Virus record (IMG/VR): IMGVR_UViG_3300027883_000030
Span: 1-22,160 of that record
Source of the DNA: a virus
DNA: 22,160 nt
Reading direction: 5' to 3' (one strand)
In this document: in pieces, positions 4,101 through 22,160 of the stretch
Layout: every line of letters begins with the position of its first letter
Position numbering within the stretch: position 1 is the stretch's first letter
Notes under the pieces: model-generated
What the model saw: only the letters and a program-made list of their open reading frames with translations
The model's database searches: none
Told to the model about the DNA's origin: nothing
Made by a program: the position numbers and the translations under genes

Positions 4101-7100
4101 GCACCTGCAATTCCTCTTTCACGAATAGATATGGGTGAGTTATTCCAGTCATCTTGTGATGACATATTTGTAGCAAATTCACTCATTCCTGTTGCTGTAG
4201 CAGTAATTTTTGGTGCTGTAATAGCTCCACTAGAGATTGTGCCAACAGTAAGATTTCTTGATGTATCCAAGAACTGAGTGCCCGCCATTCTTAATGGTTT
4301 ACCGCTAAAATCAATTCCACTGGCTGAAAACGATATTAAATTACCATTCTTATCGCTGTATAGATTTAAATCACCAGACTGGTTTGTTCCAATATAGGCA
4401 TCTCTACTGCCATCTCTTCCATAGTAACTTATATAGTTCCAATCATTGCCATCGGAGCTATTAACATATAATCTTAACTTGTCATCTGTTGTGGAGTTAA
4501 TTGTAATATCACCAGTAGCGTTAACAGCCCCACTAGAGATTGTCCCTGCAAAGGTAGCCGCATTATTTCCATCTAGCCTTAAAGCAGTTGATGCGGTTGA
4601 ACCATCATAAGTCTGAAAAGATAGAGAGTAGTTATTAACTAATCCCTCGACAATCCTTGCGTCACCGTTAGCCCAATCAAGCATCGCTCCGCTTGGTAAA
4701 TCATATTCAGTTGCATATATCGCCCCACTAGATGTAATAGCCCCACTATCAATAGTGCCAATAGTTAGGTTTCTTGCCGCACTAACGATCTCTTGACCGC
4801 CCATACTTAACGTCCCTGCAAAGACATTTGTACCTGTAGCAGTTACTTGTAATTTAGTCGCGCCACCGACAGCAAGCAAGGTCGATGTAGATGAGTTTAA
4901 GACGGCTTGGCTTGTAGATGGAAAGCTAAGATAACTATTGTTCGTGTCCTTGCTGTAATAAACTCTGGCTTTTACGTCAGTTGCGGTTTCAAAGTTACTA
5001 TTGCTAGTAATCGCGCCTGTCATCGCCCCGCCCGATAGAGGCAAAAAAGAACCTGTTGCGGCTATGGGTTGAATAATGGATGACAGTGTTGGCTCTGAAC
5101 CATCAACAACGTAGAACATGGGTTTAGCCCATGACAATGATGCCGCGCTTGCTGTTGAATAGTAAAGATAGGTTCTGTGTTGCTGTATTGTAGAACCACT
5201 TTTCATTCTAAAGTCAGCATAAGTTGAACTAACTTTAACACCTGTATCACACCTATAAGTGCCACCTACACTGTTAGCCGTGCCAGTGTCAGAGTTTGCC
5301 CTAATAAATCCTATAGACACACACCAAACATCTTGAGGCAAAGTACCTATAACGAAAGGGCCAAAATATGGATTGGTGTTTGCAGTTCCATTTAAATTTA
5401 ATGTATGACTACCATTGCATCCGTGATAAAAAGTTCCACTTGTTGATGCACCATTTCTTCGCACATAGACTACAGATATATATGAATTATTATCTGTTAT
5501 TCCTGTTATTGTCTTGTTCCAACCACCGTCATCATTGCTTTGAGTGTCATTTGATGGGGTATGCCAAACTAAACCTCTACTACCATCAGGCAACGTGCTA
5601 TGTATAATTTGGTTTTCTGCCTGAGTGCCATTTCTTGTAAAGTTGCCACCGTAGTACCCTGTTTGTGAATCGAATCCATTTGTATCTAAAACCCAAGCCG
5701 ACGAATCTGCATAATTTAGTGCTATCCCTCTTGGTAAAGTGTCAACATAAAGCCTACCGTCTGATAAGGATGATGTTCCTCCAGAGTTAAGAGCCGCAAC
5801 CGTAAGGTTGTTTGAGGGGTCAAGAAAGGTAGTCCCACCACGCTTATACGCTGTTCCATCAAAGCTACCACTAGCAAAAATCGTACCCTCTACAGAAATA
5901 GCCGTCCCAGAAGATGCTCGGCTTTTTAGGAAATACGTAGAATTGCTTGCGTCTGTTGTGAAAATTGTTCCTTTGACTGTTCCAGTAGAGTTAATAGCCC
6001 CACTACCAATAGTTCCAATATTGAGTAGGTTTCTACTACCGTCTATAAATTGAGACCCTGCAAGGTAGAGGCCGTTTGTAGACCTAAAGTAAATGCCAAG
6101 CCAATCTAGACTAGCATCAGCCGCACCAATGTAGAGGGCTTTGTCTCCGTCAGTAGATGGGCGAATATAACTTGCCCCTCTATTCATCACTAAGCCGTAC
6201 CCCTCAAGGGTCATATAGCTTCCGTCTGAATAGTGAGAACGCAATAATCCTGCTGTAGAACTATCGCCTGAGATTACGGAAGTTGCTGTAATAGCCCCAC
6301 TAGAGATTGTGCCTAAAGTTGTATTGCCAAAGCTGTTAGAGTTTCCAGATGCTGTAATACTTCCACTGGCTGTCACTGTAGTAGCTGACAAGTTACTTAT
6401 TGTTGTATTACCAAAATTATTAGAATTTCCTGACGCTGTAATACTTGCACTACTTGTAATAGCCCCACTAGAGATTGTTGTGGTTGTCAAACCACCTGCC
6501 GTAGTTAAATCTCCAGTTTGAGATAACGTCATGCTGTCAGAACTAGCGTTAGATAACCTAAAGCTAGTCGTGGCCGTTCCTGTTCCTACAACGGATATTT
6601 CCATGTTGGCAGAAGCACCATTGGTAAGCGTCAACTTAGTCATTGAAAGGTTGCCAATGCCTACGTTAGTCAATGCCCTAGCGGAAGTGATTACTTCTAC
6701 TCCCCCTACAGAAATACCACCGCTTGCTACGTTAATAGCACCACTAGAGATAGTGCCTGAGCTAGTAATCGCATTGCCACCCATTGCAAGAGTGCCAGAC
6801 ATTGTTCCACCTGCTTTAGGCAAAGCCGCATTTGCTACCGTATAAGCTGTGTTCCAGTTAGATGAGTTACCGCCTGTGGCTGTAATAGTCCCAGTGACAG
6901 ATAATGCTTGGTCAGAAATGGTAGTTCCTGCGGTTATTCGCAATCTAGCAGTTGTGCTTGCGGCTCTACGCAACTGTAAATCTTCATCATAAGAATCTAC
7001 AATTCCTTCATTAACCGTAATTTTCTTATTAAAATAGAAAGAGTTTCTGTCTGTACTGAAATGCATCCAACTTGAATTGTCTGGGCCGATAGCAACGTAT

Positions 7101-10100
7101 CCGCCAGTAGTTTGAATTTTTAACTGGCTACCATCACCACTGAGGGTCGGTTGAGTATCAGCACCTAATTGAAGTGAAGGTGCTTTTACTTTATGGCTGA
7201 AATCAAACTTGTCGTTAGTTGAGTCCCACAAAATAGTCGCGTTAGTTGTAGAATTAACCGCATCCTGAATGGTTATTCCTGCACCGTTAGCATTCCCTGA
7301 CGAATCGCCAGTTGAATAATTTAAGGTAATGTTTTTATCTTTTACATTTAAATCATCAGTATCAACAGTTGTGGTTGTTCCTTGTACAGTCAGATTACCC
7401 CCAATAATTAAATTATTGCTAAAGGTATGATCGCCTGTGATTGTGCTGTCAAGGTTAAGGATTACGTCACCAGACGCACCACCGCCATTAAGATTAGTTC
7501 CTGCTTCTACGCCTGTAATGTCTCCAGATGCCGCGGCCTGAGTAATCTCGTTGGCGCTGATTACATTAAATCCAGTTGAGCCATTATCTTCTACGAGGAA
7601 TGATCTAGGCCATGTCGCCAGATTGTTTAATGAAGTGTCGTAACTGGTATCTGTAGTCGTTAGCTGAACCCTAAACCAGAAAATATCTTGAGCATAGGTT
7701 GCAGTATTTTCTAAAGTTCTGTCACCGTTTTCATCTAATCCAGTAACGCTTGCATGATTAGAAACGTCCACTTCTGCGGGTGTGGCAAAAGTAGTTGTCC
7801 CTGACGGCACAAATTGCGTAGACGTAGCGAGATAAGTAGTGGCAGATGTTGCATCTGTAACTTTTAAATATTGTTGTGAAGCAACATTGGTAAACCCTGA
7901 ACCTGCCGAGGTAGTGGATTTTTGAATAGTCAAAGTAAAGTTATCAGGTATGTCTGCCAAGGCGTTAGCCATTGACTGAGCCGAACCGATAGTTACTGAG
8001 GATAAGTCTAATCCAGAAAATAGGTTAGATGCTTTAATTCCAAGCGTTAAAGAGGTGCTTTGAATTAACGTCACTTTAACCGATTGCAGGTTGTAGACTA
8101 AATTACTTTCAAACTTGGAAACTCTGGATGCTGTGTTAGCCGCTATCTCAGAATAAGCAAGATCAGTAAATCCTTGCGGGCTGAAATAAGCGTTGGCGTT
8201 TCCATCTTGTAAATGCATACCTTTAGCGGTCAGCGTTCCATCTTTATGGACTGAAAACTTTGCATTCTCTGGCGTAGAACTGCCTACCCACATACGATAA
8301 TCAGACGCGGTACTGAGCGTGATCGTGTCGGCAGAATTAGTACCAATAGATATAAGCGGAGCAGTACCAGATACAGTTATTTTAGTTGCTTTTAACGCTC
8401 CCCCTTTAGTCACAAAGAAAGGTGCTGTAGCTCTGTTGGCAAACGTGTTGCCCGCCCAGAATCTAACGTCATCTGCACTAGATGCGACAGAAGACAAGCC
8501 CATAGTATTAGCGGCATCTTTTAGGTAAGTACCTGCAATGTCAAAGCCGCCAATCTCACCATCGTTTGCAATGATGCTTCCACGAATAGTTGCTTGCTCA
8601 AACTCAACTACTCCGCTTTTAAGTATCTTCCAACCTGCCGAACCAGAAACATAATTAGTAGATTGAAGACTAGCCGCAACCTTGGCAATAGTAACCGCGT
8701 CATTATCTATCTGGTCTGTCTCTACAGCAAGATTAGCAATCTGGTCTGTATCAACAGCATTATCAGCAATGCCACCAATAGGGACTTGCGTAGTAGTCGC
8801 ACTATCAACACCGCTAAAACCAGACGCATTACCAGTATAATCTACTGCTTTTAATTTGTAGTATCTTGTAACCCCTGTTCCAAGTTCAGGCTCTGTAAAG
8901 GTTGTTCCCGCGCTTGTTCCTATTAACGCAAAACCACTGCTTGACGAGTTTGAGCCATAAACATCAACATGACTAAAATCATCTACCGTTGGATTGACCC
9001 ATGAGATAGTCGCTTGCTCAAATTCATCTTTTGCAGAGACAGACGTTGGCGCACTTGGAGCAGTCGTATCAATCGCAGAAGTGGGGCTTGCAGAAAGGTA
9101 AGCACTGGCAACTCCAAGCTCATTAATCGCTTTGACCCTGACATTGTATGTCTCGTTATTCTGTAAATTCACAATGCTAAATGGGGTTGATTTAGTAGAC
9201 TGACTAAAATAATTAGATGCGCTTGCTAACTTCCACTCGACAATGTAATGATCTGTAAAAGCATCATTCGCGTCTGTCCAAGCAACATTAAAGGCAGAAT
9301 TAAAAGTTCCATCGTCACTTAGAAAAGAATCGCTTGTAATGTTTATGCTTGTAGGCGCAACTGAAACCGAACCATCATACAAAACAACTTCACCGCCACC
9401 CAAAAACACTTCTTCATCAGACGCTTGCCAATCCCAGATAGATGATGCTGTTTCTATTGCATCAACATTAACAACAATTTGGCCGTCAGAATTAAAATCC
9501 ATCGCATAGCCAACAACTTCAAACACTTTCCCGCTGTATCCAAGCCGCGTATTGGTGACGCTAATATTGTCCCCTATCTTAAATCTAAGCGCACTTAGGT
9601 TGCAGGGTATAGTTATGGCTTCTTGTTGCCTAGAACGGAACAGGGCGAGTTTAGCAAGCCTCTGAGCGCGTATATTGTTTGAGGTATACGGCAACGCCAT
9701 ATCAAGGTAGATTGGGTCGCCATCTTGCAAGGCATAAGCCGCTGAAATTTGTGCGGGGTAATCAGCTAAAATATAGTTGTCTTCTTCTGAGAGGAACACA
9801 CCCTTTACGCCATTAAAAGCGTTTCGTCTTGACTGCTTAGTCTGTACTGTAATCTCGCCAACAATTTGTGATTCATCAACGGTAACTGATGGAGCTATGT
9901 ACTCCCCTGCGTGAACTTCAAACTTGCCGCCAGAGTAGACCAACCGACCCGCCATTGAACCGACCATTGTTTCTATGTTGGCCTTGATGGAGTTATTGGT
10001 ATCCACTACACCGTCAATAGTGTATCTAGGCTGAGTTCCACCCGCTGAAAGGGTAATTGCTTCATCACAAACGCCCTTTGCAGTGTTTACAGAAGCGGTA

Positions 10101-10819
10101 AGAATGTTGGCCGCAGTTTCGCTCAAACCGTATTTTGTGTCGCGCAGATAATCATAGATGCAAAGCGCGGGGTTTTGTGACCATGCGGTTGAATTGTCGC
10201 TTGGGTTTAATACTTTTTTCCCGCGAACAATAGTAGAGATATTTGGCAGACCTTGAGCAAATTGGTCAGTGTCATGGGTCAGCTTAACAACCATATAGGC
10301 TGTATCAAGTAGCTTGTGGTTGGTTGTCCACTTTGTAGATGCGGCAACTAATCCGCTGTCAGCCGCTGTTTGATCTCCTTTATAAAAGGATATATCTACA
10401 TAGGGGGAAGTGCTTGAGTTTCCTACAGTTGCCCACCCAGATTGATAGACCCCTCCATCCCAAACTTTCTTGTCATTAAACCAGACGCTTTCATAAGCAT
10501 CAATCTCATGCCCTGCAACGGCTAAAACTAGATACAAATACTTATTGTCAGAACCAGTTGATTCTAAGTAAACAACATTGCCGCCAATACGCGCACGACC
10601 ATAAATAATCTTCCTGCTGTGCGCGGCCTCTCTGGTCATTACAGACTGACCGCCCATTTGCGTTCCAATATCAGGCTTTGGCATTAATGCGCGAGAAACT
10701 AACGATAAACCTGCGCCAATAGCAAACGCTCCAAAAGCCGCACCCCAAGCCATAGCGAAACCTGCGGCCGCCCAAGCCGACCCTGCGGCCGCTAAACCTG
10801 CTATTAATGTTATTGCCAT
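1124..10819 (-). CDS. Giant tail tip attachment/fibre protein (lambda J-like) with FN3 domains, fibre repeats and C-terminal S74 chaperone (3231 aa)
   Basis: Host-contacting protein at the tail end. An Ala/Gly-rich hydrophobic N-terminus (1-45) precedes a J-like tip region (about 50-480), with MTREAAHSRKIIYGRARIGG near 61-80. Two fibronectin type III-like domains follow (about 487-582 and 585-680), then long fibre modules. These include GDITGVEAGTNLNGGG near 1100, GNLTVQGTTTTVD near 1142 and many copies of SRNL..IGTISSGAI. Two jelly-roll-like inserts lie near 1690-1920 and 2785-3000. The C-terminus is a peptidase S74 intramolecular chaperone: SDYRVK gives the Ser3128/Lys3133 dyad, followed by HEVAEL and a final heptad helix. 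Known relatives trimerise and cleave just before that serine, so a 3127-residue mature chain is expected. AAGGG at the end of the GNAT gene serves as ribosome site. It is about three times the usual J length, evidently a tip and fibre merged in one gene. Confidence 0.93.
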   Translation of the reverse strand: MAITLIAGLAAAGSAWAAAGFAMAWGAAFGAFAIGAGLSLVSRALMPKPDIGTQMGGQSVMTREAAHSRKIIYGRARIGGNVVYLESTGSDNKYLYLVLAVAGHEIDAYESVWFNDKKVWDGGVYQSGWATVGNSSTSPYVDISFYKGDQTAADSGLVAASTKWTTNHKLLDTAYMVVKLTHDTDQFAQGLPNISTIVRGKKVLNPSDNSTAWSQNPALCIYDYLRDTKYGLSETAANILTASVNTAKGVCDEAITLSAGGTQPRYTIDGVVDTNNSIKANIETMVGSMAGRLVYSGGKFEVHAGEYIAPSVTVDESQIVGEITVQTKQSRRNAFNGVKGVFLSEEDNYILADYPAQISAAYALQDGDPIYLDMALPYTSNNIRAQRLAKLALFRSRQQEAITIPCNLSALRFKIGDNISVTNTRLGYSGKVFEVVGYAMDFNSDGQIVVNVDAIETASSIWDWQASDEEVFLGGGEVVLYDGSVSVAPTSINITSDSFLSDDGTFNSAFNVAWTDANDAFTDHYIVEWKLASASNYFSQSTKSTPFSIVNLQNNETYNVRVKAINELGVASAYLSASPTSAIDTTAPSAPTSVSAKDEFEQATISWVNPTVDDFSHVDVYGSNSSSSGFALIGTSAGTTFTEPELGTGVTRYYKLKAVDYTGNASGFSGVDSATTTQVPIGGIADNAVDTDQIANLAVETDQIDNDAVTIAKVAASLQSTNYVSGSAGWKILKSGVVEFEQATIRGSIIANDGEIGGFDIAGTYLKDAANTMGLSSVASSADDVRFWAGNTFANRATAPFFVTKGGALKATKITVSGTAPLISIGTNSADTITLSTASDYRMWVGSSTPENAKFSVHKDGTLTAKGMHLQDGNANAYFSPQGFTDLAYSEIAANTASRVSKFESNLVYNLQSVKVTLIQSTSLTLGIKASNLFSGLDLSSVTIGSAQSMANALADIPDNFTLTIQKSTTSAGSGFTNVASQQYLKVTDATSATTYLATSTQFVPSGTTTFATPAEVDVSNHASVTGLDENGDRTLENTATYAQDIFWFRVQLTTTDTSYDTSLNNLATWPRSFLVEDNGSTGFNVISANEITQAAASGDITGVEAGTNLNGGGASGDVILNLDSTITGDHTFSNNLIIGGNLTVQGTTTTVDTDDLNVKDKNITLNYSTGDSSGNANGAGITIQDAVNSTTNATILWDSTNDKFDFSHKVKAPSLQLGADTQPTLSGDGSQLKIQTTGGYVAIGPDNSSWMHFSTDRNSFYFNKKITVNEGIVDSYDEDLQLRRAASTTARLRITAGTTISDQALSVTGTITATGGNSSNWNTAYTVANAALPKAGGTMSGTLAMGGNAITSSGTISSGAINVASGGISVGGVEVITSARALTNVGIGNLSMTKLTLTNGASANMEISVVGTGTATTSFRLSNASSDSMTLSQTGDLTTAGGLTTTTISSGAITSSASITASGNSNNFGNTTISNLSATTVTASGSITASGNSNSFGNTTLGTISSGAITATSVISGDSSTAGLLRSHYSDGSYMTLEGYGLVMNRGASYIRPSTDGDKALYIGAADASLDWLGIYFRSTNGLYLAGSQFIDGSRNLLNIGTIGSGAINSTGTVKGTIFTTDASNSTYFLKSRASSGTAISVEGTIFASGSFDGTAYKRGGTTFLDPSNNLTVAALNSGGTSSLSDGRLYVDTLPRGIALNYADSSAWVLDTNGFDSQTGYYGGNFTRNGTQAENQIIHSTLPDGSRGLVWHTPSNDTQSNDDGGWNKTITGITDNNSYISVVYVRRNGASTSGTFYHGCNGSHTLNLNGTANTNPYFGPFVIGTLPQDVWCVSIGFIRANSDTGTANSVGGTYRCDTGVKVSSTYADFRMKSGSTIQQHRTYLYYSTASAASLSWAKPMFYVVDGSEPTLSSIIQPIAATGSFLPLSGGAMTGAITSNSNFETATDVKARVYYSKDTNNSYLSFPSTSQAVLNSSTSTLLAVGGATKLQVTATGTNVFAGTLSMGGQEIVSAARNLTIGTIDSGAITSSGAIYATEYDLPSGAMLDWANGDARIVEGLVNNYSLSFQTYDGSTASTALRLDGNNAATFAGTISSGAVNATGDITINSTTDDKLRLYVNSSDGNDWNYISYYGRDGSRDAYIGTNQSGDLNLYSDKNGNLISFSASGIDFSGKPLRMAGTQFLDTSRNLTVGTISSGAITAPKITATATGMSEFATNMSSQDDWNNSPISIRERGIAGAGDGEDRDAPNLNFHWGARVSNSLWMNASGQLAYGSYSSSGVPSANGTFRAGSYQIGATTVIDASRNLLNIGTISSGAINITSGGISVGGVEVITASRALTNVGIGNLSMTKLTLTNGASANMDIQVAGTGTATTSFTLSTGATIMTLSQAGNLAPIGGLTTTTGTFSSGLYFPNANSRIYGGGSYRALEPHVNGSQLQLGEGYGLINLFKTQNAVNELKLYNNRQDLSYVGVSKVSGYNGVETSNMTFYRGGGGSSGFIKFQVKPTNASSLADQFQIGDGGTVGYGVNVPVGGYRINNTTVIDASRNLTNIGTISSGAITATADTDALNIFTTTNGAGADIRFSDQTSRAQSGYLRYVHSDTASYGSGNAFLFNSTESTTTILADGKLMFKEGLYLKPSSGTGAGTTVIDANRNIFANDYYYLDSKIMAQGTDTYLRINQSAQFGSGCWFGSSQILNSNSRYIATGSNGGTSNSRVYMYGGTYNGTNVIALDGSDGKIKGSYYAVGGTTVIDSSRNLTNIGTIGASGTITGAGLSVNDVGALNGDFTNRITAQNKDIDDETLFCITDSDTTASVKAKFETTSTAFTKVTDLTAPASGCFQVAGNVNVYFGDNLNRFAMDDETEITFECWAKYVSGGDTAGNFYAGGEFHNSAGTSYGNTQRYWGANGDSLDANDGTGWRFIRGVMSGAQIRTVLTDATSLDFLNLFNYNAGANTTRYCGYRFYKSKKQVSSLWLRGHNGSGYSNDSAFQTTEAATATQIIDGAGNIFCGTITSTGSSLSIGNTTVRVINGPYVNGNVGLEANSTSYGCYMQGGTTNYAYFNNTKTVLNRRMEILASTSQGSTTPNIKSKAQGNSNGTAQYHINFTDSSGTVDGRITSNGFATSYTTTSDYRVKEDERPMSMATPTLLALRPINFQWKGSDLRTDGFFAHEVAELVPDAVVGEKDATEEVTDDNDVTTTVDSLQALDQAKLVPLLVKTIQELEARITALESA
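1127..1438 (-). other. Peptidase S74 intramolecular chaperone domain and autocleavage site
   Basis: Residues 3128-3231 of the tip-fibre. The DNA at 1421-1438 encodes SDYRVK; in endosialidase-type S74 domains the equivalent serine and the lysine five residues later form the catalytic dyad, and cleavage occurs N-terminal to the serine. Downstream are PINFQWKG, GFFAHEVAELVPDAV and a C-terminal coiled-coil helix, in the family's usual order. Cleavage is inferred, not observed. Confidence 0.88.
3615..3890 (-). repeat. Internal duplication of the fibre gene, copy B
   Basis: Encodes a block starting GTISSGAIN and containing SGGISVGGVEVITA, a run of 26 residues identical to copy A (6480-6758), and GTGTATTSFTLS. 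The distance between copies is 2868 nt at one end and 2865 at the other, both multiples of three, so the reading frame is kept. Confidence 0.85.
6480..6758 (-). repeat. Internal duplication of the fibre gene, copy A
   Basis: Matches copy B (3615-3890) over roughly 95 residues, including SGGISVGGVEVIT, a 26-residue identical run beginning RALTNVGIGNLS, and GTGTATTSF. The identity weakens toward the C-terminal end (GGLTTTT). Confidence 0.85.
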
Positions 10820-10822
10820 TTT

Positions 10823-11275
10823 TTAACCCTTAAAACATTTGGAGTAAATTCGCTCGATTAAAGTAAAACCCATGCCAAGCAAAAGGTTGTCGAACGGAAG
10901 GTGAACTTTGGTATTGACGTTTAATAAAGAAATGCCATTTTCCGCGCAATGTTCTTGAGCATAGTTTAACAGCTTATATCCTGTTGCGCCCGCCCTGTTA
11001 TCTGGCAACACAAAGGTAACATCATTGTTAGCAAAAATATGATCTTTGTAGTGCATAGACCGACTTACTACTAGAACGCAATAACCGACTAAATGCCCCG
11101 AATCTCTTGCAGTAAATACGCGCAGTATTCCTGCCGCATCTAGCTTTGCGTATTGTTCCCAATCAGGGTTTAGTTTTATAGTGCCTTGGTTTAAAGCAAC
11201 TAATTCCCAATGCTTTTCAATTAACGGCTTAATATCTTCTTTGACGGATGCCAGACATTCGTGTGCGATTTTCAT
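10823..11275 (-). CDS. GNAT-family N-acetyltransferase in the tail operon (150 aa)
   Basis: The length and order fit a compact GCN5-related acetyltransferase. GHLVGYCVLVVSRSMHYKD (60-78) supplies the central beta strands. DNRAGATGYKLLNYAQEHC (92-110) is the acetyl-CoA loop and helix, a variant of the R/Q-x-x-G-x-G/A signature. The C-terminus KVHLPFDNLLLGMGFTLIERIYSK (about 123-146) is the strand-helix-strand close seen in phage GNATs. It would move an acetyl group from acetyl-CoA to an amine; the substrate is unknown. It lies between a distal-tail gene and the tip gene. A GGGGA ribosome site overlaps the upstream stop, and its own end supplies the tip gene's site. That placement suggests modification of a tail protein or of a host factor. 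Confidence 0.85.
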   Translation of the reverse strand: MKIAHECLASVKEDIKPLIEKHWELVALNQGTIKLNPDWEQYAKLDAAGILRVFTARDSGHLVGYCVLVVSRSMHYKDHIFANNDVTFVLPDNRAGATGYKLLNYAQEHCAENGISLLNVNTKVHLPFDNLLLGMGFTLIERIYSKCFKG

Positions 11276-11923: not shown

Positions 11924-12480
11924 AATGCCTCTTCACACGCAAAGGAAAAGCCGTAAATACTGGCCTCGTTAATTGACCAACCTACGTCATTGGATGCCAT
12001 ACGCCAAAGGCTTTTAGGCAACGTAAAATCACACGCCTGACCACTGGCAATAGTTTCTCTCAATGGCGGTTGAAAACTTAATGTTCCTGCTCCGCTTGAT
12101 TTATCTGCTGTTACTATATACAAATAAGAACCTAACTGGAAGTACGTTCCTGCGCTAACGGCAGAGCCTCCTGATGTGGTTGTCAAGGTTTCAGATCGGA
12201 TTGTTGCTTGTGCTGATAGAGTCGCGGTTGCTGTGCTTGTATGTAAAGGATTACCAAAAGTAAACGTCCCTTCTCGCCCTTTTAAGCCAACAATAAAACC
12301 TTCAACAGATCGTGCCTCTGCGTGGCTCAATGGCGGTAGACTTATCTCTGCTTCCCATCTAGCTCCTTGGTGAGTATATACCTGAGTATCTAAAGTAAAG
12401 GGCGATTCCGCAACTGCGACAACCCTCTTTAACCGCATAGACATATTCTGTATTCCGACACTTGGAAAAGCTAAAGGCAT
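11920..12480 (-). CDS. Distal tail protein (Dit/minor tail M-position-like, 186 aa)
   Basis: The protein begins MPLAFPSVGIQNMSMRLKRVVAVAESPFTLDTQ. It continues HQGARWEAEISLPPLSHAEARSVEGFIVGLKGREGTFTFGNP (from about 38), then a beta-rich half ending SINEASIYGFSFACEEAL. The block 'W-E-x-SLPPL-x-x-x-EA...GREGTF' recurs in phage distal-tail proteins immediately after the tape measure, and I call it on that pattern and position. It should sit where the tube ends and the tip begins. It starts on the tape-measure stop (TAATG, one-base overlap), and its own stop overlaps the next gene by four bases, which implies coupled translation and similar stoichiometry. Confidence 0.72.
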   Translation of the reverse strand: MPLAFPSVGIQNMSMRLKRVVAVAESPFTLDTQVYTHQGARWEAEISLPPLSHAEARSVEGFIVGLKGREGTFTFGNPLHTSTATATLSAQATIRSETLTTTSGGSAVSAGTYFQLGSYLYIVTADKSSGAGTLSFQPPLRETIASGQACDFTLPKSLWRMASNDVGWSINEASIYGFSFACEEAL

Positions 12481-14288
12481 TATGCGCCCCCCATTGCTTT
12501 AGAGAAGTTCCCACCGCGCAATCGTGCGTCAGCGACAGCACCTTTTGCGGCCTGTGCAATCTGAGGCATTAGCTGAACGATCTCAGCCCTTACAGTGGAT
12601 TGTATGCCTGTTGTGACATTGATTGTTTGGTTGACCACTACACCGCCACCACTACTTCCTAATTTGTTGTTAGGGACAATAGAGCCGCTTTGATTAGGCA
12701 CGAACATTTCCTGCCCGCGCTCTCCAACCATGTAAGGTTTTCCCGCCTGAACAGACCCGCCAATAGCTTTACCGCCAAGCGCGGCATTAGTGGCATCTAG
12801 ATTGCTCTGCATATTTGAAGAACCTGTGGTCAATGAGCCGCTAATCTTATTTGTAATAAACCCAAAGGCCGCGTCAACAATATACTTCTGAATCAGCATC
12901 TTGATCAGGCTATCAATAACTGACTTAGCCATTGATTTCATAGCATCGGCAAAACTAGCCGCGCCAGTAACACCCGCTGTCAAAGCATCGGTTAATCCGT
13001 TAAGTCCTTGATTAGTAAGGCTTTTAATGTTTTCTTCTGTGGACGGTAATGATTTATTCCACTCTGCAAACGTCTGGAATACAGTCCCAACTTGCTTGTC
13101 AATTTTGGGCAAAATTGCATCACTGACAACCGCGAAAGTTTCAAGCGATTTAATAGCGTCATCAAGTATTGCAATTAAAGGAGATGCAAAAGTAACATCC
13201 CCTATCTCTCTTTCCGAATCTTGAGCTTCTTGCATCAACGCTAAAGTTGTGCGGTATCTCTCATTTAACAAATCCATCACTGGAAGTTTTTGGTCAAACG
13301 TCATTGTCGGGTTATTAATTAACTTTTGTTGCAGGTCTTTTATGCTGTCTAACTCTTCTCTGTAACCTGCGGCATCTTTTTTCCCCAAAGAAAAGAAATT
13401 GTTAAACTTATTCTTGGCTCTTACTGCCTCATTGAAGACACTTATAACCCCATTGGTTAAATCTTCTAAACCTTGCAGGGTAACTCTCACTGCACCTAAA
13501 ATGTCAACAGCCAGTGCCTTAGCAAACTCTTTTACGCCACCCTTAGCTTTTATGCTACCCAATAGAAACTTTGTAAATGTTTCCGTCAAGAACCCGATAG
13601 CAGGAGCAAGCGCGGCCGTTACCTGTCTAGTTACTCCAGTAAACAAAGAGCCTAATTTAGTAAATTCATCATTAGCTTTTTCAACGCCTTTTGCCGCATC
13701 TCTAGATAATCCAAGACCAAGAGCCTTGGCCTCTCCTAGCATTTTAGCAAGCCCCTCTCGCCCTTGGCCTAAAGTATTAACAAGTGCCGCACCCTCACTG
13801 TCAAACAGCTTAAAAGCCAATCTAAGCCTGTCTGATTCATTTTCTACCCCTGCAAAAGCGTCTGCCAAAACAAGCATTCTTTCATCAAGGGACATTCTAT
13901 TTAACTTTTGCGCGTCAATGCCTAGCTCTTTAATTGCCGCCTTTGCTTCACCTGTACCCATAGCGGCTTCGGCAGTTCGTCTAGTGAACCGCTGTAAAGC
14001 CATATCCATTGTGTTAGTTGCTACACCAGTGAGTTCTGCCGCATACCTTAACCCCGCCAAAGCATCGGTTGTTGTACCTATTTTGCTTGCGGTTTTTATT
14101 AAAGCGTCTGAGGCAGTAAGTGACCGTTTAATTAAAAAGCCAAAACCTGCTAAACCTGCCGCACCGACTAAAGCAGTACGCATTGAGAAGACTGCACCAG
14201 TGATTTTCTTTAAACCAGAAGTAACAGTTCCAAAACCTTTCTTGGTCTTGTCAAACGCCTTGATCGTAATCTTTACATTTTCAGCCAT
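12480..14288 (-). CDS. Tail tape measure protein (602 aa)
   Basis: Long helical protein that sets tail length and is ejected ahead of DNA. The N-terminus ITIKAFDKTKKGFGTVTSGL is typical of tape measures, and a hydrophobic segment follows (about 30-50, TALVGAAGLAGFGFLI). The middle is heptad-rich helix with another hydrophobic stretch near 460-490. The C-terminus has GKPYMVGERGQEMFVPNQSG (about 516-535), a block common at the end of lambda H-like proteins, then a Gly/Asn-rich strand and a last helix. I start at the ATG (14288) rather than the GTG nine bases upstream because MAENVKITIKA fits the family; GAGTGAG provides a modest ribosome site. It overlaps the T gene by eight bases. By the usual 0.15 nm per residue this predicts a tail near 90 nm. 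Confidence 0.92.
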   Translation of the reverse strand: MAENVKITIKAFDKTKKGFGTVTSGLKKITGAVFSMRTALVGAAGLAGFGFLIKRSLTASDALIKTASKIGTTTDALAGLRYAAELTGVATNTMDMALQRFTRRTAEAAMGTGEAKAAIKELGIDAQKLNRMSLDERMLVLADAFAGVENESDRLRLAFKLFDSEGAALVNTLGQGREGLAKMLGEAKALGLGLSRDAAKGVEKANDEFTKLGSLFTGVTRQVTAALAPAIGFLTETFTKFLLGSIKAKGGVKEFAKALAVDILGAVRVTLQGLEDLTNGVISVFNEAVRAKNKFNNFFSLGKKDAAGYREELDSIKDLQQKLINNPTMTFDQKLPVMDLLNERYRTTLALMQEAQDSEREIGDVTFASPLIAILDDAIKSLETFAVVSDAILPKIDKQVGTVFQTFAEWNKSLPSTEENIKSLTNQGLNGLTDALTAGVTGAASFADAMKSMAKSVIDSLIKMLIQKYIVDAAFGFITNKISGSLTTGSSNMQSNLDATNAALGGKAIGGSVQAGKPYMVGERGQEMFVPNQSGSIVPNNKLGSSGGGVVVNQTINVTTGIQSTVRAEIVQLMPQIAQAAKGAVADARLRGGNFSKAMGGA

Positions 14289-14403
14289 TGTTCTCACTCA
14301 TTATCTGGAAATAGGCCAACCATTCGTTAAAGTGATTGACAGGCATTTGCTCTGCTTCTTCTATGGTGAGATGGAGGCGGTCAGCCAAGGAAAGCAGATT
14401 CAT
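14281..14403 (-). CDS. Tail assembly chaperone T-part (-1 frame), expressed as GT fusion
   Basis: A 40-codon ORF from ATG 14403: MNLLSLADRLHLTIEEAEQM, then PVNHFNEWLAYFQIMSENNG and TGA. The pattern 'L..L...L..T..E...M....F.EW.AYF' is that of T-type tail assembly chaperones (lambda gpT, DUF4035-like). It is in the -1 frame relative to gene G, and that frame is open without stops back past the end of G. Its ATG lies inside the 3' end of the hairpin's 5' arm and has no convincing free ribosome site. The main product is therefore probably the G-T fusion: 114 residues of G, then 47 from the -1 frame starting LKSDQSRMNLLS, 161 aa in all. The stop overlaps the tape-measure start, fitting its partner. 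Confidence 0.82.
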   Translation of the reverse strand: MNLLSLADRLHLTIEEAEQMPVNHFNEWLAYFQIMSENNG

Positions 14404-14417
14404 CCTTGACTGATCGC
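14377..14417 (-). promoter_or_regulatory. Frameshift-stimulating RNA hairpin
   Basis: On the minus-strand RNA, GCG + A + TCAGTCAAGGA (14417-14403) pairs with TCCTTGGCTGA + C + CGC (14391-14377): 11 consecutive pairs including one G-U, an A-C mismatch, then 3 more G-C pairs, with an 11-nt loop. It begins 6 nt after the slippery heptamer, within the usual 5-9 nt range for -1 frameshift stimulators. Confidence 0.82.
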
Positions 14418-14420
14418 TTT

Positions 14421-14765
14421 TTAGTTTCCCTCTAATGCCTCAACAGATTCAATCTCTGCAAACATCTGGTTTGCAATTTCCGATATAACATTAGTTTCTT
14501 CACCCATTAAGTCAATGCGATCAGCAGAAGTAAACAGCTTATCACCGCTTTCATCTGTTGCTTTCATTAATATCAAATCAACCATTGCACCGACTGTAGT
14601 GTTGTTGAGAAAGTTGGGGTGCTTCTTCTGCAACTGGTCTAAGTCATAGCAGGTAATACTTCTGCAATACAATTTAAACGCTCCAGATTCATCACCCCAT
14701 GCAGGTACTAGAACCTCTCTAGCTTCCAACTTTCTTCTTGCTCGTAACTCTTTTGCTAATCCCAT
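14421..14765 (-). CDS. Tail assembly chaperone G (114 aa; also N-terminal part of GT)
   Basis: Small mixed alpha/beta protein upstream of the tape measure in the slot of lambda gpG. It starts MGLAKELRARRKLEAREVLV with a basic helix. It then has strand-like GDESGAFKLYCRSITCYDL and helices through the acidic C-terminus ESVEALEGN, whose last two codons form the slippery sequence. Known G/GT proteins coat and protect the tape measure until tube assembly, and are absent from the virion. The ATG is preceded by AAGGGGA at good spacing. Terminating ribosomes give the 114-aa G; a minority slip to give the 161-aa GT. The call rests on position plus the frameshift architecture, since G sequences are poorly conserved. 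Confidence 0.85.
   Translation of the reverse strand: MGLAKELRARRKLEAREVLVPAWGDESGAFKLYCRSITCYDLDQLQKKHPNFLNNTTVGAMVDLILMKATDESGDKLFTSADRIDLMGEETNVISEIANQMFAEIESVEALEGN
14424..14430 (-). promoter_or_regulatory. Programmed -1 ribosomal frameshift slippery site GGGAAAC
   Basis: In gene G's frame the end reads GAG GGA AAC TAA, so the heptamer is G_GGA_AAC. This is a canonical X_XXY_YYZ site directly before the stop, and differs from lambda's G_GGA_AAG only in the last base. Slipping back one base reads GGG AAA then CTA in the open T frame. Confidence 0.88.
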
Positions 14766-14783: not shown

Positions 14784-15185
14784 TTAAACTTGCGCTTCTA
14801 CTACTGCCCCACTGCACTGAACGCTGAAACTAGCTTCAACCATTCCGTCAAACGCGCCAGTAATAGAGCGAGAGGTAACAATGCCGCCCCCAGTGAAGAA
14901 AGTTTCACCAGAGCCAGTTCCAGTAGGATAGATTTCAAAATCAACATCAGTACCTTCATCTAGGATTAATTGCTGTGCGTCAGCTTCATCCCAGTATACG
15001 TCTAATGAGACTGTGTTAGTTTTTAAGCCTTGTTTGTAGCTTCGTACTGAATCACCCATTACTGAGTCTTCAATAGTGTCTGCTGAACCTTCAAACGTGA
15101 ATGAACGTACTTCGCCAACCACGGCAACAGTCGTGCCTGAGACTTGTACTTTTACTACTCCAGATGCGCCTGTTTTAGTCGCCAT
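14784..15185 (-). CDS. Major tail tube protein (133 aa)
   Basis: Compact, almost all-beta protein: GVVKVQVSGTTVAVVGEVRSFTFE, EDSVMGDSVRSYKQGL (about 40-55), SLDVYWDEADAQQLIL, DVDFEIYPTGTGSGETFFTG and GMVEASFSVQCSG. The central loop with 'xDxxxMGDxxxSYKxGLK' before a strand 'xxxLDVYWDExDA' is characteristic of siphovirus tube subunits of about 130-150 residues, which stack as hexameric rings around the tape measure. It is in the expected place between the tail terminator and the G/T chaperones. AGAGGT lies 8 nt before the ATG. A high-copy product is expected. Confidence 0.88.
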   Translation of the reverse strand: MATKTGASGVVKVQVSGTTVAVVGEVRSFTFEGSADTIEDSVMGDSVRSYKQGLKTNTVSLDVYWDEADAQQLILDEGTDVDFEIYPTGTGSGETFFTGGGIVTSRSITGAFDGMVEASFSVQCSGAVVEAQV

Positions 15186-16512: not shown

Positions 16513-17346
16513 TTAAAGTGCCGCGTCAGCAGTAATCTTGACACCAAAGCTATCGTCCAACTCACCAACACCGTATACGGCAGTAGCGTTAAGTTCCCAA
16601 GCGCGTAATGACTCGTCACGTTGAGGAGCAAGGTTGAAGTCACGCTTGATTGCAATGGCAAGTGCTTCGGGAGCAAAAACAGCGGCTACAGCGTCATCAC
16701 TTCCATCAACAACGATGTTAGCAGACTCATAGACGTTCATCCCCGCGATAGTTCCGACATAACCGTTACGCATTGCTTCATTCTGCAAGTCGCCACCATT
16801 CGGGTTAGCAAAGGTGTTAGTTAGGTTAGCTTTCAACTGGTACGCTTGGAAAGGGTGTACAACAGCGTTGATAACGCCAGTAACCTTGTTAGCGCGTAGC
16901 TTAGCGGCCGCCTTGAATAAGTCAGCAACAGTGATTTCCGCACCTGCCGCACCTAGACCGAAAGAGAAACCTGAGAACAAAGCAAGAAGGTCTTGATCCA
17001 TCTTGGTAGCAATAGCGTTACCAAGTAGAGTACCCATTGCAGTTTCAGGGGAATCTGCTCCGTAAGTAGCCATATCGCTTAATAGAACCTGTGCGCCAAC
17101 TTCGCCAATGGTCACTTCGACCTTGGTAGTTGATACAGTGGTTGAACTAAGATCAGTTCCTTCCGCAATAGACGCGGCCGCAATAGCGGGGTATTTAGGA
17201 ATCTGAATAGTTTTTCCTGCTTGGCTCTGGATGTTGTACTGAGTAACTAGACCTAGCATTAAAGATTGCTCTTCTGCGGTAAAACGCGCTTGTGCAACAA
17301 TATTTACAAATAGATCGTCTAGGGTGGAACTGGTAGTAATAGCCAT
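16513..17346 (-). CDS. Major capsid protein, HK97-fold (277 aa)
   Basis: Coat protein that forms the head lattice. The start MAITTSSTLDDLFVNIVAQA is a helix, followed by TIQIPKYPAIAAASIAEGTDLSST (about 46-69). Then come VEVTIGEVGAQVLLSD, the long helix MGTLLGNAIATKMDQDLLALF (104-124) and FKAAAKLRANKVTGVINAVVHPFQAYQL (about 144-171). The C-terminus holds GYVGTIAGMNVYES, AIAIKRDFNLAPQRDES and the final strand ATAVYGVGELDDSFGVKI. This is the N-arm, spine helix, P-domain and A-domain order of HK97-type coats, in a compact version resembling N4 gp56-like proteins. It lies directly after the scaffold gene, with GAGG at 8-9 nt as ribosome site, and is followed at once by a terminator. High expression is expected. 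Confidence 0.92.
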   Translation of the reverse strand: MAITTSSTLDDLFVNIVAQARFTAEEQSLMLGLVTQYNIQSQAGKTIQIPKYPAIAAASIAEGTDLSSTTVSTTKVEVTIGEVGAQVLLSDMATYGADSPETAMGTLLGNAIATKMDQDLLALFSGFSFGLGAAGAEITVADLFKAAAKLRANKVTGVINAVVHPFQAYQLKANLTNTFANPNGGDLQNEAMRNGYVGTIAGMNVYESANIVVDGSDDAVAAVFAPEALAIAIKRDFNLAPQRDESLRAWELNATAVYGVGELDDSFGVKITADAAL

Positions 17347-17390: not shown

Positions 17391-18050
17391 TCACTTTTTT
17401 TTACTAGCGGCAAACGCTTCTTTACCGCCATTTTCCCAGTTAGCAACCATATCTGCCACAGATTGAGGCTTCTGTGTCGAGCCACCAGTATTTCCCTGCG
17501 AGCCTGTCCCACCTTGGGACGCTTTGACCATGTGAGGGTTTACTGTCAAGAATTCAGTTACCATCTCATTGACTGATAACAAATCACCGCTGTCATTGTA
17601 ACGTGGCGTTCCGTTATCGTCTAGCACCTCGACGCTACCGTTGTCGGATAGTCGGGTATTGCTTTTTAGTAACTGTGAAACTTGATTAGGATTTACAGCG
17701 TTATTGTTAGAAGCCGCTCCCAGTATTGCCCCATCAACTAGGGTTTGCTGTAGCTTGCTTTTATAACCTTGTATTTCCATCTCTTTCTTTTCGACTGTCT
17801 TTTTCAGGATAGCATCAAACTCACCACGCTCTTTCTGTCGCTCAAGTTCTGCGGCTTCTTTTTGTGCCAACAGTTCCCGCGCTTCATCAATGTCAACGCC
17901 CGATATTTTCTTATCAAACTTTCGTTGCTCTCTTGCAACACGATCAGCAACAATGCGATCAAGCTCTTCCTGTGTAAAAGTCTTTCCTTCCTGAGCTTTT
18001 ATTGCCGCTGTCTCAGTCTCAACTTCTGTTCCCATGATTTCATCGCTCAT
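17391..18050 (-). CDS. Capsid scaffolding protein (219 aa)
   Basis: Acidic N-terminus, then KTFTQEELDRIVADRVAREQRKF (23-45), the usual opening of phage scaffold helices. A long charged coiled coil follows (about 55-105, rich in E, K, Q and R), then DGAILGAASNNNAVNPNQVSQLL (about 109-131). That 'xxxAxAxNNAVNPxQVxxLL' block is shared by phage scaffolds next to the coat gene. A Gly/Ser/Thr/Gln linker and a basic C-terminus (SVADMVANW...SKKK) complete it; the latter is the usual coat-binding helix-turn-helix end. The protein fills the procapsid and leaves before maturation. It is the first gene after a strong leftward promoter. AAGAGG lies about 9 nt before the ATG. Confidence 0.88.
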   Translation of the reverse strand: MSDEIMGTEVETETAAIKAQEGKTFTQEELDRIVADRVAREQRKFDKKISGVDIDEARELLAQKEAAELERQKERGEFDAILKKTVEKKEMEIQGYKSKLQQTLVDGAILGAASNNNAVNPNQVSQLLKSNTRLSDNGSVEVLDDNGTPRYNDSGDLLSVNEMVTEFLTVNPHMVKASQGGTGSQGNTGGSTQKPQSVADMVANWENGGKEAFAASKKK

Positions 18051-19480: not shown

Positions 19481-20960
19481 CTGACACCTCTTTTAGTAAT
19501 TTTTCAAACGCTTTTGACAATTCTGGGAAAAACTCTTTTGCTTTAACCCAAGACTGACCACCCTGAGAGTAAAGCTGAAACAAGTTAGCGAAATTCTCTG
19601 TAGCTTGCCAATGCAATCCTCTTGAATAATAGCTTTTGCCATGACCCCACAAATAGAATTTACCTTGCGCCCTTCCCCTGCTCATGCTGTCGATAATGTC
19701 ACTTATGGCGGGAATCCACGGCTCAGAGTAATCTAGAGTGTAGCCCCTTAATCTGCCCTTATTTCTTCCAGACTTGTAATAAATTGGGACTTTTTCAAAA
19801 TACTTGTCTCTAAATTCCTCAAGGTAGCTATCACCTACGAAAACTTCCCTTTTCCCATAACCTCTGGTTGCATATATTCCTAATTTCTCCGCATCCAATT
19901 TAGCCGTTTTTACTAACCTTGACGCAGATATATATTGTGTTCCCTCGCCCAACATATTATCAATATGGTGTCCGTACTCATGCATCAATGTTCTCTTGCT
20001 TTTTGCGGGTGTCACAATGGATTGAGTACCAGATTGATAATACCCCTTACTGCCTTGTGACCCGATAGATTTAGGCTTGGCAATCTTGTTGATTACAGTT
20101 GTTGCTAGTGGAGTAATGCCCCCATCCGTTTCAGCTAACTTTGTCCATTTCTCATCAGAGCCAAAATCTGGCTTTTGCGGGGTTGCTCTCTCCACTTCTT
20201 CTTCTTTCAGTTCTTCATCAAATACTGGCCTGAATTGGTGGCCGCAGTTGTAGCCGCCACGAACAATAAATGGGTCGCCTGACGCTTTACCCGCCCAAGA
20301 ACCTTCCCAAGTTAATGCAATCTCTTCCTCAGTAAATACCTTGCCCTCATGCTTTCGGCAAAATGGTCTGGTTGTTTCGATTAACCTACCAACATACTTC
20401 CAGTGAGTAGCCCCCGACTCCTTGCCTATGACAGCGTTTACAGATGCATCAAACTGCATTAGAGAATCATGTACCTGTTGCTTGGCATACTTAGCCAACC
20501 TTCCACCCTGAACAGCCTTAACAGCCGCGACACTGGACGCAAAAGATGCGCCTGTGAGAGTGTTCTGGTAAACCTCCCTTGATACAGTATCTAGATACTC
20601 TTGACCAATATCATCAAAGCCCTGAAAGCTCATTTTCTGTAATTGAGTTATGACACTAGAGTCAACGGTAGTAAACGCCCCATAAGTCGAAAGCATCTTA
20701 GCAGTTGATGCCGCAACCCCTTTATATTCTTTTATTAGGCCGTCTACAGTTTTTAAATAATCGTCTTCGATTATCTTCCGCAGTTCAGCCCTAGACTTAA
20801 CAGCCCACTCAAGATCAAACAGGTTTCCGTCTTTTAAAGGCGCAGTTGCCATAAGGTCGGCAATGCGGTCTTCAAGCGTCACTAGAGCATCAGACAGCCG
20901 TTCTTGGTGCTGTTCTGCTAATCTCGCCAACCCTTCAACGTAATCGCTGTCAGCCGCCAT
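19464..20960 (-). CDS. MuF-like head morphogenesis protein fused to an HExxH metallopeptidase-like domain (498 aa)
   Basis: Residues 1-250 form the MuF part: long helices, TLTGASFASSVAAVKAVQGGRL near 134-155, and the C-terminal MuF block TRPFCRKHEGKVFT (197-210) with GGYNCGHQFRPV (235-246). C201, H204, C239 and H241 may hold a metal. MuF proteins sit on the portal or inside the head. A charged linker (about 248-300) leads to a second domain, LMHEYGHHIDNM (325-336), an HExxH zinc motif with H327, E328 and H331. About 120 residues later ATENFANLF (453-461) offers E455 as a likely third ligand. MuF proteins with C-terminal enzymatic or toxin domains are known, mainly from Firmicutes prophages; activity and substrate here are inferred. 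The start overlaps the portal stop by one base (TAATG), and the end overlaps the 63-aa gene. Confidence 0.85.
   Translation of the reverse strand: MAADSDYVEGLARLAEQHQERLSDALVTLEDRIADLMATAPLKDGNLFDLEWAVKSRAELRKIIEDDYLKTVDGLIKEYKGVAASTAKMLSTYGAFTTVDSSVITQLQKMSFQGFDDIGQEYLDTVSREVYQNTLTGASFASSVAAVKAVQGGRLAKYAKQQVHDSLMQFDASVNAVIGKESGATHWKYVGRLIETTRPFCRKHEGKVFTEEEIALTWEGSWAGKASGDPFIVRGGYNCGHQFRPVFDEELKEEEVERATPQKPDFGSDEKWTKLAETDGGITPLATTVINKIAKPKSIGSQGSKGYYQSGTQSIVTPAKSKRTLMHEYGHHIDNMLGEGTQYISASRLVKTAKLDAEKLGIYATRGYGKREVFVGDSYLEEFRDKYFEKVPIYYKSGRNKGRLRGYTLDYSEPWIPAISDIIDSMSRGRAQGKFYLWGHGKSYYSRGLHWQATENFANLFQLYSQGGQSWVKAKEFFPELSKAFEKLLKEVSDGTIG
19968..19982 (-). other. HExxH zinc-binding/catalytic motif of the MuF fusion
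   Basis: Codons for H327-E328-Y329-G330-H331. In zincins the two histidines bind zinc and the glutamate activates water. The flanking LM..HID fits an alpha helix with the motif on one face. Confidence 0.82.
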
Positions 20961-22160
20961 TAGAACTGTCCTACGTTACCATCGCCAGAATCGTCATCTT
21001 TAGGTTCAATGAGAACGTCACCACCCTCAACATCCTCAAGGCCAATCTTTTCCCTGACCTCGTTGGCAGTAACAACACCCGCGTCAATGTGATAGCCGTA
21101 TATCTGAGTTTTATCTGAGAAGTCACCAAGTACAGATGCTTTCTCTTCAATCTCAGCGTGAGCCTTTGCAAGAGCCTCATCATCAAGCACTAGATCACTG
21201 ATCTTTTTATCTATCTCCATAGCAAGGGTTACTGATTTAACACCAGTAGAACGCAACTGCTGTAGGAACATAAGCTCTTTATCGTAATCTCTAAGGTCGA
21301 ACGCATCTGGGTAGAAGATTTCTATGTCATTAGTCACTTCCTGCCATTTACAAAATAGACCCCATAATTGTTCTTCCGCAAGCTCAAGAAGATCAGCTTT
21401 CTCTGACAGCTTCGCATTAAGCATCTGAAACTCTGTAGCCATTGCAACACCGCTCATAGTAACGGCCTCAGTGCCACGAACTGCGCCCATGTGAGACATA
21501 CGGTTAATTGATTGAATCTTGTCTTGAATTGATGCGCGTACAGCGTCTAAGTTCTGGCCGCTTGGCTGTAACTGGTAAGGCTTTAATGAAGAGTCCATAT
21601 CATCAGGCATATTAATGATCGCACCTGCGCCCGCTGATGCATCTGTTCCGAACGATTTAACCAAGGTCGGATGGTTGGATATCCTGATAAGCTGTTCCAC
21701 CTCAGACAACTCTTGATAGATAGCGCGTTGCATATAAGAAGCATCAGAGATGTCGCTGATACCAATGCCACGCACAACCGACCTGTTAGCGGGTAGAAAT
21801 ACTGCGGGAATATGACCAAGCACATTGTTGTCAATTTCAACTAACTTATCCAGATCGTTAGTTGACCGCCAAAGCTCAATCTTATCCTTATACCACGCCC
21901 TGTAGTATGACTCTGTAGTCGTATCATCCACGCGAATGACTGATTCCCTGACCTTTAAATAACATAGCTCAAATCGGCCGCTTGGGGTTCTTTCGTATTC
22001 CCAATCCAATACATTTTCTGGCGTAAACATAGTCACATAAGGACGGATTTCCTGATCTAATTCTTCGGCCTTTGTTCCCGCTGTAGACTTAGGCTTGTCC
22101 ATCATTATCCAAACGTGACCATACACGCTTGACCATATCTGGCATTCACGCATAAACGCA
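20960..22160 (-). CDS. Portal protein, partial (N-terminus beyond window)
   Basis: The frame stays open to the right edge (399 codons visible), so the ATG at 22153 is probably internal. Portal features are RYYRAWYKD-type strand-rich clip/wing sequence (ESYYRAWYKDKIELW near 82-96 counted from M22153). Then come HIPAVFLP, DISDASYMQRAIYQELSEVEQLIRISNHPTLV and LKPYQLQPSGQNLDAVRASIQDKIQSINRM with SGVAMATEFQMLNAKLSEKADLLELAEEQLW, the long crown/stem helices of phage portals. The C-terminus reads GYHIDAGVVTANEVREKIGL, then an acidic tail. Twelve copies form the DNA channel at the head vertex. It is the most upstream structural gene here and overlaps the MuF start by one base. A full-length protein of about 450-500 residues is expected. 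Confidence 0.88.
   Translation of the reverse strand, partial: AFMRECQIWSSVYGHVWIMMDKPKSTAGTKAEELDQEIRPYVTMFTPENVLDWEYERTPSGRFELCYLKVRESVIRVDDTTTESYYRAWYKDKIELWRSTNDLDKLVEIDNNVLGHIPAVFLPANRSVVRGIGISDISDASYMQRAIYQELSEVEQLIRISNHPTLVKSFGTDASAGAGAIINMPDDMDSSLKPYQLQPSGQNLDAVRASIQDKIQSINRMSHMGAVRGTEAVTMSGVAMATEFQMLNAKLSEKADLLELAEEQLWGLFCKWQEVTNDIEIFYPDAFDLRDYDKELMFLQQLRSTGVKSVTLAMEIDKKISDLVLDDEALAKAHAEIEEKASVLGDFSDKTQIYGYHIDAGVVTANEVREKIGLEDVEGGDVLIEPKDDDSGDGNVGQF

Follow-up and report, generated by a model that had tools for sequence, protein, structure and literature searches.

A very probable lambda-type −1 frameshift signal at an abutting stop codon between tail chaperone genes G and T of a virus record

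Tail chaperone genes G and T of a 22,160-base virus record, the whole of which we call the window, very probably meet at a programmed −1 ribosomal frameshift signal of the lambda G/GT class. The sequences directly show the elements of this signal and their conservation in relatives; they also show that T behaves as a coding segment and that the shift site is confined. G/GT frameshifting is established in lambda and many dsDNA phages (reviewed in PMC5009743), and a passage of PMC3711429 cites Xu et al. 2004 for its occurrence in lambda, HK97, and other dsDNA phages. All genes in the chaperone region of the window are encoded on the minus strand and run from capsid through tail terminator, major tail protein, G, T, and tape measure to distal tail. 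This order places G and T between the major tail (tube) protein and tape measure genes, as in the lambda-type pair. The features discussed here are as follows.

14784..15185, minus strand: major tail (tube) protein, upstream of G (PHROG 10528, E=9e-13).
14421..14765, minus strand: gene G, tail assembly chaperone, zero-frame product of 114 aa (open reading frame; PHROG 344; predicted fold).
14438..14441, minus strand: Shine-Dalgarno (SD)-like GAGG, proposed 5′ stimulator (conserved at the same spacing in two clades).
14424..14430, minus strand: slippery heptamer G_GGA_AAC (direct reading; X_XXA_AAN kept in relatives).
14421..14423, minus strand: zero-frame stop TAA, adjoining the heptamer (direct reading; same position in 178/189 distinct relatives).
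14377..14417, minus strand: proposed 3′ stimulatory hairpin of 14 bp with one A-C mismatch and an 11-nt loop (RNAfold; synonymous-codon null).
14281..14424, minus strand: T segment in the −1 frame, LKSDQSR...SENNG, 47 aa plus TGA (reading; codon-position bias; PHROG 337, E=4e-4).
12480..14286, minus strand: tape measure protein (Tape_meas_lam_C, E=9e-7; PHROG 9483, E=1e-57).

On the minus strand, the 3′ end of G reads GTT GAG GCA TTA GAG GGA AAC TAA. An in-frame X_XXY_YYZ heptamer, GGGAAAC (14430-14424), therefore stands at the end of G as in lambda-type pairs. The original prediction had described G as ending in G_GGA_AAC_TAA, with a 6-nt spacer, and direct reading found its coordinates and numbers correct to the base: the stop TAA lies at 14423-14421 and the spacer, TAAAAA, at 14423-14418. 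Framed X_XXY_YYZ heptamers occurred at 0.005 per codon in the genes of the window and were terminal in 2 of 17 genes, so the position of the heptamer alone was suggestive and comparative evidence was decisive. The other terminal heptamer, A_AAA_AAG_TGA, closes the gene before the capsid (17391-18050). There the −1 frame opens just 8 codons, and the motif is probably a Lys-rich end by chance.

Relatives were collected from three scans of viral contigs (240 loci) and one genome-contig scan (five loci), and eleven isolated-phage records matched. A profile search with all lineages pooled gave no usable conserved stretch, and single-lineage queries were therefore used instead. A DNA-level search of annotated phages returned zero matches, and an Rfam search returned nothing credible. 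In total, 249 loci were analysed, of which 189 were distinct over the compared stretch. Three clades were compared: the window clade, a Roseobacter-type clade, and a Pelagibacter-type clade.

Loss of the heptamer in close relatives had been named as grounds for abandoning the signal; an X_XXA_AAN heptamer was kept in essentially all of the 189 distinct relatives. It stood directly before the G stop in 178 of them, as GGGAAAC (58), AAAAAAC (111), AAAAAAT (7), or AAAAAAG (2), and the A-site codon was AAC in nearly all relatives, AAT in 7, and AAG in 2. Ten more kept an A-run heptamer with the stop 3 or 12 nt later. Three distant loci from Rickettsiales MAGs (L253-L255) carry GGGAAAC about 33 nt before the G stop, with a −1-frame TAA directly preceding the heptamer. 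A strict requirement for an abutting stop was rejected on these two sets of loci. In the one remaining distinct relative (L208), G and T share one frame after a deletion at the G end; its positions 1501-1920 are either a naturally fused gene or the product of a defective or chimeric contig. This locus is what one might expect if an indel had split a single chaperone gene, leaving an accidental signal. That reading is barely credible, since the same split recurs at the same place with an intact T in about 250 loci over deep divergence, and T shows coding constraint. Conservation refutes it.

In many relatives, the sequence around the heptamer confines the proposed shift to this one site. The base preceding GGAAAC was invariably G while the encoded amino acid varied (E, T, or Q). 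The heptamer is directly abutted by a −1-frame stop in 30 of 54 sequences of the window clade, in 10 of 62 of the Roseobacter type, and in 1 of 54 of the Pelagibacter type, namely HTVC112P. Where this stop ends right before the first G of GGGAAAC, only the heptamer is open to both readings, and the shift is confined to it. The last −1-frame stop in the window itself lies 9 nt further upstream than the abutting position.

Past the slip, the −1 frame continues for 47 codons before it meets TGA at 14283-14281, giving the 161-aa fusion that had been predicted. Reading in the −1 frame from the heptamer gives LKSDQSRMNLLSLADRLHLTIEEAEQMPVNHFNEWLAYFQIMSENNG, then the TGA at 14283-14281, which is overlapped by the tape measure gene with its ATG at 14286. 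Stops in the −1 frame of relatives, also named beforehand as evidence against the signal, were absent from the 38 T codons checked in 122 distinct sequences. Both other frames contained stops across these codons in all sequences. Variable columns of T fell at first, second, and third codon positions as 20/11/34 in the window clade and as 20/12/35 and 30/15/33 in the other two clades. The alignment of the GT fusion was unbroken across lineages that are 27-43% identical to the window. As judged from these alignments, T is under protein-coding constraint while lacking a conserved start codon, as in lambda-type G/GT pairs.

The only ATG of T had been described as covered by the hairpin. ATG 14411-14409 is the sole one near the T start, but later ATG codons exist. 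It does lie within the hairpin, at the apex, with its A in the closing pair and its T and G in the loop. If translation began at this ATG or at a nearby start codon, independently or coupled to G, T would be a separate short protein. An ATG at T codon 8, preceded by AAGG, is present in 53/54 window-clade sequences, which fits such initiation; however, the AAGG directly touches the ATG, so the SD spacing is wrong. One member of the clade (L043) has GTA in place of the ATG, and this ATG is missing from every Pelagibacter-type sequence and from nearly all of the Roseobacter type. No ATG, GTG, or TTG occurs within the first 16 codons of T in 53/54 Pelagibacter-type and 17/62 Roseobacter-type sequences, leaving most of the former and many of the latter without any start codon. 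Separate initiation would also leave the frozen heptamer bases unexplained, and we regard it as very improbable. The absence of start codons in many relatives and the GTA in L043 lend good support, at the sequence level, to the proposal that T is made solely as the GT fusion.

The hairpin was recovered exactly where it had been predicted. It spans 14417-14377 and comprises 3 bp, an A-C mismatch, and 11 bp with one U-G pair, closed by an 11-nt loop. RNAfold of the region contained the same stem (−24.3 kcal/mol, z −2.38 vs dinucleotide shuffles). Against a null of random synonymous recodings that keep the T peptide, the window hairpin gave z −3.4, and 1 of 200 recodings was as stable. By the same null, all 30 distinct window-clade members fell between z −2.0 and −4.6 (mean −3.4), compared with means of −0.5 and −0.4 in the other two clades. 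The window-clade hairpin is far more stable than T coding requires. As a signal element it held up in the window's clade but not outside, being specific to that clade. Stem pair cells were standard in 90.6% of cases within the clade, and sliding the register lowered this to 28-48%. The compensatory stem changes suggested as a check did appear, as one two-sided G-C to C-G pair in five sequences, but they involve 1 of 15 pairs. This covariation support is modest because the clade is closely related, and the synonymous test is stronger. The stem begins 6 nt downstream, within the 5-9 nt of dnaX-like signals.

A further element, absent from the original prediction, is a GAGG at 14441-14438 that ends exactly 7 nt upstream of the heptamer. 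The GAGG occurs at identical spacing in 52/54 window-clade and 62/62 Roseobacter-type sequences. Every sequence of the two clades (54/54 and 62/62) has GAG as codon −6, counts that ignore shared descent, and GAG makes up 48% (window clade) and 17% (Roseobacter-type) of the remaining Glu codons in those genes. The comparison indicates that the GAGG is frozen at a synonymous site. HTVC112P and a locus from a Phyllobacteriaceae bin (L252) share the same GAGG at the same spacing; other Pelagibacter-type sequences have no GAGG and carry a longer A run instead. Stimulation of −1 shifts has been reported for internal SDs located 8 to 11 nt upstream of a slippery site (PMC6321510), and the 7-nt spacing here is just under that range. 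We propose the GAGG as a candidate 5′ stimulator. A role as the ribosome-binding site of T was considered separately and rejected: the GAGG has no start codon at the right spacing, and many relatives have a −1-frame stop between it and T.

The A-rich runs raise transcriptional rather than ribosomal slippage as an explanation. Pelagibacter-type sequences (L171-L250) have runs of 8-9 A with little hairpin or SD, and polymerase slippage is plausible there. However, the window and its whole clade have only GGGAAAC, a run too short for known polymerase slippage, and their hairpin and SD-like element suit a ribosomal mechanism. Transcriptional slippage is thus highly unlikely to be the explanation.

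In the ribosomal mechanism that we favor, most ribosomes would translate G and stop at TAA. A minority would slow down as they meet the hairpin, probably helped by pairing of the GAGG with the 16S anti-SD, and would slip from GGA-AAC to GGG-AAA. These ribosomes would read on in the −1 frame to produce the 161-aa GT fusion. If assembly proceeds as in lambda, G would coat the tape measure protein, and tail-tube subunits would be recruited by the T portion of the fusion. We infer that slippage occurs, along with how efficient it is, what each stimulator contributes, and this assembly role. It is conceivable, though doubtful, that release-factor competition at the A-site stop, with E/P-site slippage, sets the G to GT ratio. 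If so, the signal would be responsive to host termination capacity.

Protein comparisons agreed with the predicted identities. G matched PHROG 344, tail assembly chaperone (E 8e-5), and T matched PHROG 337, tail protein (E 4e-4); some relatives scored stronger than the window proteins against these two families. The AlphaFold model of G, with a mean pLDDT of 66, had the HK97 tail assembly chaperone 2OB9 as its best solved-structure match (prob 1.00, TM 0.54-0.58, E 5e-3), and its top viral structure matches include annotated tail assembly chaperones. The PHROG 344 match and the HK97 fold match of the model support a resemblance of G to known tail assembly chaperones. Pfam assigned neither G nor T of the window to a family; among the wider collection of G sequences, 10 had a doubtful MKRN1_C match and 2 matched Phage_TAC_13. 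A sequence search of solved structures found no match.

Other parts of the window were also compared. The nearest isolates for its capsid and portal (16513-17346 and 20960-22153) are Pelagibacter phages HTVC111P/112P/026P/202P and DSL-LC06, and those for the tail chaperone (14421-14765) are Roseobacter CRP-822-type phages, pointing to a mosaic genome. Positions 1124-10819 form a single 3,231-aa ORF with many repeat-like segments, probably a tail fibre or tip protein, whose C-terminus resembles, by eye, an intramolecular chaperone domain. A small protein at 10823-11275, acetyltransferase-like by eye, lies within the tail module.

The slippery heptamer of lambda is GGGAAAG. The window locus shares with lambda gpG/gpGT the site before the tape measure gene, a heptamer near the G end, a short −1-frame T, and, as predicted here, a fusion product. 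In lambda-type systems the GT fusion amounts to a few percent of G and is required for tail assembly. It differs in having GGGAAAC, a stop directly after the heptamer, and both an SD-like GAGG and a hairpin. The heptamers do differ in the last base only, as had been pointed out, but exchanging AAG for AAC is no minor matter, as shifting by E. coli ribosomes is reduced at AAC. In E. coli, heptamers with AAG as the second codon are far shiftier than those with AAC (PMC5009743; PMC4066793). With a strong stimulator, 61 of 64 motifs were active in E. coli, and GGGAAAC is outside the three inactive ones. The g-t sites of haloviruses HCTV-1 and HCTV-2 are G_GGA_AAC and A_AAA_AAC (PMC5009743), heptamers identical to those found here in the same gene pair, although these viruses have archaeal hosts and the isolated relatives here infect alphaproteobacteria. 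E. coli dnaX (A_AAA_AAG) shares the layout of 5′ SD-like element, heptamer, and 3′ hairpin, but it is a different gene, and here the SD lies 7 nt upstream and the stop abuts the heptamer. In two phage sets, the stop lay on average 26 and 36 nt downstream of the heptamer (PMC10885494), and a stop directly after the slippery site is known elsewhere, e.g., in Rous sarcoma virus (PMC4373837). CRP-822-type roseophages (PMC12629253) and Pelagibacter phages HTVC111P/112P/026P/202P have homologous G and T with X_XXA_AAN followed by the stop. The locus is an ordinary member of the lambda G/GT class in which every single element was already known; the combination and its clade-wise turnover are new detail. 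What is notable is the AAC slippery codon abutting the stop, the turnover of stimulators between clades, and the unannotated T.

T had been expected to escape routine gene calling, and it was unannotated in all nine isolate records examined. An antisense hypothetical gene is annotated over T in HTVC112P (L085 1846-1992) and HTVC111P (L089 1550-1702), and both calls are likely spurious. In CRP-406, G is labelled hypothetical. The word frameshift is absent from the text of the paper on the CRP-822-type family, which reports the chaperone as restricted to some subgroups (PMC12629253). Incomplete annotation may in part lie behind this reported restriction.

Our findings supply the missing half of a gene in an abundant marine phage group that is annotated without T. 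They also provide a natural series in which the heptamer is kept and the stimulators turn over, from SD-like element with hairpin, to SD-like element alone, to a longer A run. That these relatives of alphaproteobacteria phages consistently use AAC offers an exception, open to testing, to the rules established in E. coli.
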